Below, one piece after another: positions 24,572-25,342 of a stretch of DNA of 64,000 nucleotides. Under the pieces are notes generated by a model that was not told the origin of the DNA, searched no databases, and worked only from the letters and a program-made list of their open reading frames with translations. The first letter of the stretch is position 1. Every line of letters begins with the position of its first letter. This stretch comes from Cyanobium sp. CH-040. GTDB taxonomy: Bacteria > Cyanobacteriota > Cyanobacteriia > PCC-6307 > Cyanobiaceae. The position numbers were made by a program, and so were the translations under genes. The stretch lies in assembly GCF_024346135.1 (NCBI RefSeq), contig NZ_JAGQCJ010000011.1, positions 1 through 64,000 of the forward strand. Reading direction: 5' to 3'.

Positions 24572-24599
24572 GCCCAGTTGAGCGAGTGTCCTCCGCCCC

Positions 24600-24628
24600 T
24601 TGCCCGGCCCAGGTCCACCCCCTAGCTT
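24600..24628 (+). promoter_or_regulatory. Candidate promoter of the Yfr2-like sRNA
   Basis: TTGCCC (24600-24605) and TAGCTT (24623-24628) are spaced by 17 bp. The predicted start about 7 nt after the -10 box falls at 24635, exactly where the structured, conserved-looking RNA begins. Confidence 0.5.
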
Positions 24629-24634
24629 GCCCTT

Positions 24635-24733
24635 GTGTGAGGAGTGCGGAACGACCACTCCGGGGTCGAAACGAGGACAGACTCCCGGAGCTCGTTCCAA
24701 TCTTCAGCCCTGCCTTCGGCGGGGTTTTTTTTT
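24635..24733 (+). ncRNA. Candidate small RNA, Yfr2-family-like
   Basis: About 99 nt with its own promoter and terminator. It starts with GTGTGAGGAGT (24635-24645), the exact complement of the unpaired ACUCCUCACAC motif of the cyanobacterial sRNA Yfr1. Then comes a two-part hairpin: GGAACGA with TCGTTCC (24648-24654 and 24692-24698) and CTCCGGG with CCCGGAG (24658-24664 and 24684-24690), with a 19-nt loop containing cgaaacgaggacag. It ends in a strong terminator. A structured stem-loop with a GAAAC-type loop and a 3' terminator is what I know of the Yfr2 (Cyano-1) family; the family name is an inference not checked against a covariance model. Confidence 0.6.
24708..24733 (+). terminator. Rho-independent terminator of the sRNA
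   Basis: CCCTGCC and GGCGGGG pair over 7 positions (one G-U) around a 3-nt loop and are followed by nine T residues. It would end the sRNA and any readthrough from the DUF3747 gene. Confidence 0.85.
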
Positions 24734-24952: not shown

Positions 24953-25342
24953 TCACTTGATGGTGACCTTGCCGCCGGCCTCCTCGATGGCCTTCTTGAG
25001 GGCTTCGGCGTCGGCCTTGGAGATGCCCTCCTTGACGGCCTTGGGAGCAGCCTCCACGAGGGCCTTGGCGTCGCCCAGGCCCAGGCCGGTGGCTTCGCGC
25101 ACGGCCTTGAGCACCTTGATCTTGGCGGCGGCGTCGAAGCCGTCGAGGATCACGTCGAATTCGGTCTTCTCCTCAACGGCTTCAGCGGCAGCCCCACCGG
25201 CGGCGGGAGCGGCCATCACGACGCCGGCGGAAGCGGCGGCGGAAACACCGAAGGCCTCCTCGATCTGCTTGACGAGCTCGGAGGCTTCCAGCAGCGAGAG
25301 GGTCTTGAGTTGGTCGAGAATCTGGTCAGTGGTAGCGGACAT
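24953..25342 (-). CDS. rplL: 50S ribosomal protein L7/L12
   Basis: Forms the flexible ribosomal stalk that recruits translation GTPases. The 129-residue protein has the N-terminal dimerisation helices (residues 1-32), an Ala/Gly hinge (35-54) and the conserved C-terminal domain ([25 protein letters not shown] and [12 protein letters not shown]). It follows rplJ by 77 bp on the minus strand and is ended by a strong terminator. Confidence 0.98.

Follow-up and report, generated by a model that had tools for sequence, protein, structure and literature searches.

A single gene of the Yfr2 family of small RNAs was identified at positions 24635–24733 of the analyzed window (the whole 64,000-nucleotide stretch) of Cyanobium sp. 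CH-040. A fold is predicted for its RNA, a gene for Yfr1 is present in the same genome, and the 5′ end of the Yfr2 RNA shows an exact, conserved complementarity to the Yfr1 motif. The reading that we favor, with a probability of about 0.85, is that this single Yfr2 is transcribed from its own promoter, pairs with Yfr1 over 12 bp, sequesters it, and so frees the mRNA targets of Yfr1. The coordinates of the features are given in Table 1.

Table 1. Features of the Yfr2 locus of Cyanobium sp. CH-040 and related features elsewhere in the genome (positions refer to the window unless a contig is named).
Feature	Coordinates	Strand	Remarks
DUF3747 protein gene, 273 aa	23750–24571	+	co-directional, upstream; PF12565, 117.9 bits; start codon chosen by eye
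Conserved upstream element CAGTTGAGCGAGTGTCC	24575–24591	+	starts 60 bases before the inferred start; possible regulator site
−10 box TAGCTT (fits TAnnnT)	24623–24628	+	position shared by 77 of 79 exact-complement loci
Yfr2-family sRNA gene	24635–24733	+	about 99 nt; −10 box used to infer the 5′ end, terminator to infer the 3′ end
Yfr1-pairing segment GUGUGAGGAGUG	24635–24646	+	perfect 12-bp complement of CH-040 Yfr1
Main hairpin	24648–24698	+	7-bp lower stem, internal loop, bulged upper stem, 12-nt loop GAAACGAGGACA
Intrinsic terminator	24706–24733	+	stem-loop 24706–24726, nine T 24725–24733
rplL (ribosomal protein L7/L12)	24953–25342	−	convergent neighbor; NCBIfam TIGR00855, 146.2 bits
Yfr1 (RF01116)	253640–253698 (contig C1)	−	62.4 bits
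GntR-family protein, 329 aa	739–1728 of L134 (contig C21)	−	candidate yfr2 regulator

The sequence-only reading had proposed a Yfr2-like sRNA and named a search with the Rfam Yfr2/Cyano-1 covariance model as one of its checks. This search (Infernal) revealed a match of RF01701 (Cyano-1, the Yfr2 motif) at 24631–24703 on the forward strand that spanned the whole model and scored 48.3 bits, above the gathering score of 41 (E-value = 2.7 × 10−5 for the window and 2.9 × 10−7 for the genome). The covariance model supports the assignment of the segment to the Yfr2 family, the Cyano-1 motif being the hallmark of Yfr2 RNAs according to the Limnospira paper (PMC8400943). The CH-040 RNA shares with the family the 5′ GUGUGAGGAG, a 12-nt loop on an interrupted stem, and a terminator of its own, and it is an ordinary member of this known family of cyanobacterial sRNAs. 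Its transcript probably starts at 24635, the 5′ end corresponding to the first G of GUGUGAGG. No second RF01701 match was found in the genome at E ≤ 10, and a loop-pattern search of the genome revealed no second Yfr2, the sole other loop match having three mismatches; one copy was thus found in CH-040, whereas MED4 has four. Weak matches to other sRNA families at the locus were all below the gathering score and lay mostly over the terminator. A match of the Yfr1 model on the opposite strand (13.9 bits, below the gathering score) was attributed to the shared motif, with which it overlaps.

The minimum free energy (MFE) of the 99-nt RNA was −48.2 kcal/mol (z = −4.04), and none of 200 dinucleotide shuffles folded as well. 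The two-part hairpin with 7-bp arms (GGAACGA/UCGUUCC in the lower stem) and the nine-T terminator, both of which had been read from the letters, were confirmed, as was the conserved 12-nt loop on a bulge-interrupted stem that is described as a Yfr2 feature in PMC2662882. In the consensus fold of 21 genomes (CH-040, 11 of its genus, and nine of its family), 6 of the 20 pairs of the hairpin and terminator were changed on both sides with pairing kept, nucleotides 1–14 were unpaired, and the loop region GGTCGAAAC(G/A)AGGACAGACTC varied about as little as the 5′ end. In the MFE fold of the CH-040 RNA alone, six bases of the motif were paired with UCUUCA; the opening of nucleotides 1–12 costs 5 kcal/mol (from −48.2 to −43.2 kcal/mol), which is already counted in the binding energy of the duplex given below.

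The partner, which was to be located in the same genome, is present in canonical form with the exact complementary motif: one Yfr1 was found over the gathering score of RF01116, and its motif region reads CACACUCCUCACACCC. The segment ACUCCUCACAC lies between two stem-loops, the arrangement expected of RF01116, with a mean unpaired probability of 0.80, the corresponding value for the 11-nt motif of Yfr2 being 0.49 (both in lone folds). The flanking ORFs, named by eye from their translations, encode a thioredoxin with a WCGPC site and an IMP dehydrogenase, so that the locus agrees with the published guaB–trxA location of Yfr1 (PMC6778093). The exact undecamer ACTCCTCACAC was found in all 51 Yfr1 sequences compared, which were drawn non-randomly from the 129 genomes with a match; this unpaired, ultraconserved stretch of Yfr1 has been known since 2007 (PMC2190773).

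The 5′ end of Yfr2, GUGUGAGGAGU, complements the Yfr1 undecamer exactly, as had been noticed from the sequence, and the complementarity reaches 12 bp, GUGUGAGGAGUG of Yfr2 matching CACUCCUCACAC of Yfr1 perfectly. It should be noted that the letters themselves are of little statistical weight. The sequence GTGTGAGGAGT at 24635–24645 (+) was the sole match in the window at one mismatch or fewer, and at least one such match occurred in 62 of 100 shuffled windows; consequently, the 11-mer alone is within chance, and the surrounding RNA is the significant part. Similarly, the genome contains ACTCCTCACAC twice, once in Yfr1 and once on the opposite strand of the Yfr2 5′ end, against three times for the reversed control, so that this count is also within chance; the weight lies in the fact that both sites are the conserved segments of these two sRNAs. 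A search for the exact letters revealed no third carrier of the Yfr1 motif in the genome, whereas in MED4 Yfr10 is such a third carrier.

The duplex that the sequence-only reading had called for was predicted by RNAcofold with all 12 pairs and a binding energy of −16.4 kcal/mol after subtraction of both lone folds; among 500 dinucleotide shuffles of Yfr2 (mean −5.7, sd 2.8), none reached this value. The structure-blind duplexfold did not separate the real RNA from shuffled ones, 270 of 500 shuffles being as good. When Yfr1 and Yfr2 of the same genome were cofolded, 41 of the 42 pairs of RNAs (CH-040 included) formed a motif-to-motif duplex of 8 bp or more. Since Yfr1 is invariant in the 51 sequences, compensatory changes of the kind that would prove the contact cannot occur among them.

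Matches at E ≤ 0.01 were found in 138 of 149 genomes for RF01701 and in 129 of 149 for RF01116, CH-040 included in both. A match of the Yfr1 model was missing in 20 of the 149 genomes, 18 of which still had a Cyano-1 match; these 20 include some incomplete assemblies as well as four single-contig genomes of 99–100% completeness (G022, G050, G076, and G088). The length of the longest exact complement to Yfr1 was determined in 67 Yfr2 loci, a non-random selection among the RF01701 matches listed that consisted mostly of the best-scoring ones or those of the nearest relatives, 25 of them being compared with the Yfr1 of CH-040 in place of their own; L027 and L033, from genomes already represented, and L035, with an uncertain offset near a contig end, were omitted. 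This length was 6 nt in 2 loci, 8 in 7, 9 in 12, 10 in 11, 11 in 4, 12 in 20, 13 in 3, and 14 in 8. Thus, an exact match of at least 11 nt, present in 35 of the 67 loci, characterizes part of the Yfr2 family, the remaining 32 having 10 nt or fewer. The Yfr2 pattern with the exact 11-mer was found at 79 places in the genomes of 84,980 species, all of them in cyanobacteria, mostly Synechococcus and Cyanobium, and in 78 of these the match extended to 12 letters. As these 79 loci were chosen by the exact 11-mer, the true tests are the twelfth letter and the surroundings alone.

Comparison of the surroundings revealed that the locus is fixed in Cyanobium-like relatives, where Yfr2 faces rplL and usually lies 3′ of a DUF3747 gene. 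The convergent rplL was found in 19 of the 21 genomes and in 70 of the 72 exact-complement loci for which sufficient DNA was available; the DUF3747-type gene preceded Yfr2 in 20 of the 21 genomes and in 59 of 71 such loci. In print, by contrast, yfr2 genes are described at unconserved loci (PMC6778093), and very little synteny is reported (PMC2190773). No paper naming Yfr2 together with rplL was found in a search of a limited library of articles.

The promoter claimed in the sequence-only reading stood in its −10 half and fell in its −35 half. A TAnnnT was present at the exact −10 position in 77 of the 79 exact-complement loci and in 39 of the 67 more diverse ones. The proposed −35 box, TTGCCC, has four of six consensus letters by eye; TTG[AC] occurred at this place in 8 of the 67 loci, and a consensus promoter scan near Yfr2 returned no site at 9/12. 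Further upstream lies a conserved element, CAGTTnnnnnAGnGnCC, whose first base lies 58–63 bases upstream of the 5′ G of the Yfr2 RNA, and the feature should best be extended upstream to 24575 to take it in. At least 8 of its 10 fixed letters were found in 61 of 78 exact-complement loci, whereas 1 of 441 control places within these loci scored as high, the score being the best of 11 offsets near the expected position; this contrast is somewhat overstated, because the 21 genomes in which the element was first seen overlap the exact-complement loci tested and the loci are related. The pattern CAGTTNNNNNAGNGTCC had one match in the 2.9 Mb genome (24575–24591), and so did its reversed control, so that the position of the element, rather than its rarity, is the evidence. 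An initial, stricter form was present within 100 bases upstream in 30 of the 67 diverse loci (mononucleotide shuffles: mean 1.2, maximum 5) and failed in five of the seven genomes that belong to the same class but not to the family, as well as in 32 of the 60 other loci; the element is therefore not universal. It lies about 60 bases before the RNA and may serve as a binding site for a regulator.

Upstream of five Yfr2 copies from smaller-genome relatives (L014, L017, L028, L031, and L125), an almost perfect inverted repeat of the AACTGnCACnGTGnCAGTT type was seen by eye, and the CH-040 element at 24575–24591 resembles one half-site of it; a dimeric regulator may use such a repeat as its operator. 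In three other copies (L015, L020, and L122, from genomes G082, G041, and G021, respectively), the same CAGTT-type inverted repeat was observed in the −35/−10 region, away from −60, and a repeat so close to the RNA start would suit repression there over activation. The yfr2 promoters of marine picocyanobacteria are reportedly GntR-regulated through a CGRE1 motif, the regulator being PMM1637. CH-040 likewise has a conserved upstream element and a GntR-family protein, a candidate regulator of yfr2. This protein of 329 aa was the sole one of its family found over the Pfam cut-off in the genome, and no NCBIfam model matched it at cut-off.

The sequence-only reading had implied that the pairing of Yfr1 with Yfr2 was new. 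In fact, a paper of 2008 (PMC2518516) already proposed that Yfr2-type RNAs pair with the Yfr1/Yfr10 motif, and such pairing was shown in 2019 with RNAs of Prochlorococcus MED4: as reported in PMC6778093, Yfr1 and Yfr2 each recover the other in pull-downs, and Yfr2 also recovers Yfr10, restores a Yfr1-repressed GFP fusion in Escherichia coli, and loses its cleavage by RNase E upon pairing. For the Nostoc RNAs, a Yfr1–Yfr2 gel shift was reported in 2020 (PMC6974561). The central idea of pairing is known biology. The pairs of MED4 and Nostoc PCC 7120 involve the same two families and the same segments, the duplex of CH-040 being a predicted one; the MED4 pair, as given in PMC2518516, needs a bulge and a mismatch, whereas the complement in CH-040 is perfect.

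By the mechanism that we propose, the Yfr2 gene would yield an RNA of about 99 nt from its own promoter, the 5′ end of which would form 12 bp with ACUCCUCACAC, an exposed segment of Yfr1. Titration of Yfr1 would then release the mRNAs that it otherwise binds, Yfr2 might be shielded from RNase E by the same pairing, and other targets would be contacted separately, through the conserved 12-nt loop. In CH-040, intracellular binding, titration, and protection from RNase E are expected by analogy with the Prochlorococcus and Nostoc RNAs, and the same analogy suggests that Yfr2 would be induced by nitrogen or light stress.

The conservation of the loop, which about equals that of the 5′ end in the 21 genomes, may also be read in another way, namely, that Yfr2 acts mainly through the 12-nt loop on mRNAs or antisense RNAs and that pairing with Yfr1 mainly switches Yfr2 off. 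This possibility is somewhat doubtful but has several observations on its side: in PMC6778093, MED4 Yfr2 is reported to pull down 302 mRNAs, with 48% of the peaks antisense, the authors of that paper consider that Yfr2 cleaved by RNase E could still regulate through its loop alone, and the Cyano-1 match is kept in 18 of the 20 genomes without a Yfr1 match. However, the exact Yfr1 complement is kept in the lineage although the consensus fold does not require it.

It is very unlikely that the GAGGAG 5′ end lures the ribosome or a CsrA-like protein as a Shine–Dalgarno-like or ANGGA-type decoy, with the Yfr1 match as a by-product of both RNAs acting on Shine–Dalgarno sequences. The GGA motifs are indeed repeated in Yfr2, and Voss et al. 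raised the comparison with RsmA (PMC2662882), but that same paper describes RsmA/RsmE homologues as not identifiable in cyanobacteria, the 12-nt match to Yfr1 exceeds the Shine–Dalgarno length, and physical pairing of Yfr1 with Yfr2 is reported in PMC6778093 and PMC6974561. Hardly any weight is given to 24635–24733 being a 5′ leader or a coding transcript rather than an independent sRNA: the next gene, rplL, faces the RNA, which ends in a terminator and contains no ATG, and a TGA directly follows the first GTG, even though frames from GTG at 24637 and 24644 extend through the terminator and PMC2662882 reports a mapped start common to two Synechocystis Yfr2 genes and their downstream genes.

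With titration of Yfr1 by a single Yfr2 as the preferred reading, CH-040 represents an unusually clean case, in which the one Yfr1 and the one Yfr2 found match perfectly over 12 bp and no further exact carrier of the motif was found. Three modest points are added here: the perfect match of two RNAs each found in one copy, a locus that is retained across the lineage, and the conserved upstream element. Because the circuit is single-copy, a cultured Cyanobium-type strain would suit testing of the effect of Yfr2 on Yfr1 by the removal of one gene. We tentatively suggest that, in picocyanobacteria of the Cyanobium/Synechococcus type, the Yfr2 gene that pairs perfectly with Yfr1 may be fixed opposite rplL, and that its promoter element, half of the dyad seen in the smaller-genome relatives, may be widely shared in the family and serve one regulator, possibly the GntR-family protein. 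If so, Yfr2 would be the dedicated RNA output of this regulator beyond the marine strains, and the fixed locus together with the conserved upstream element offers a starting point for finding the regulator of yfr2.
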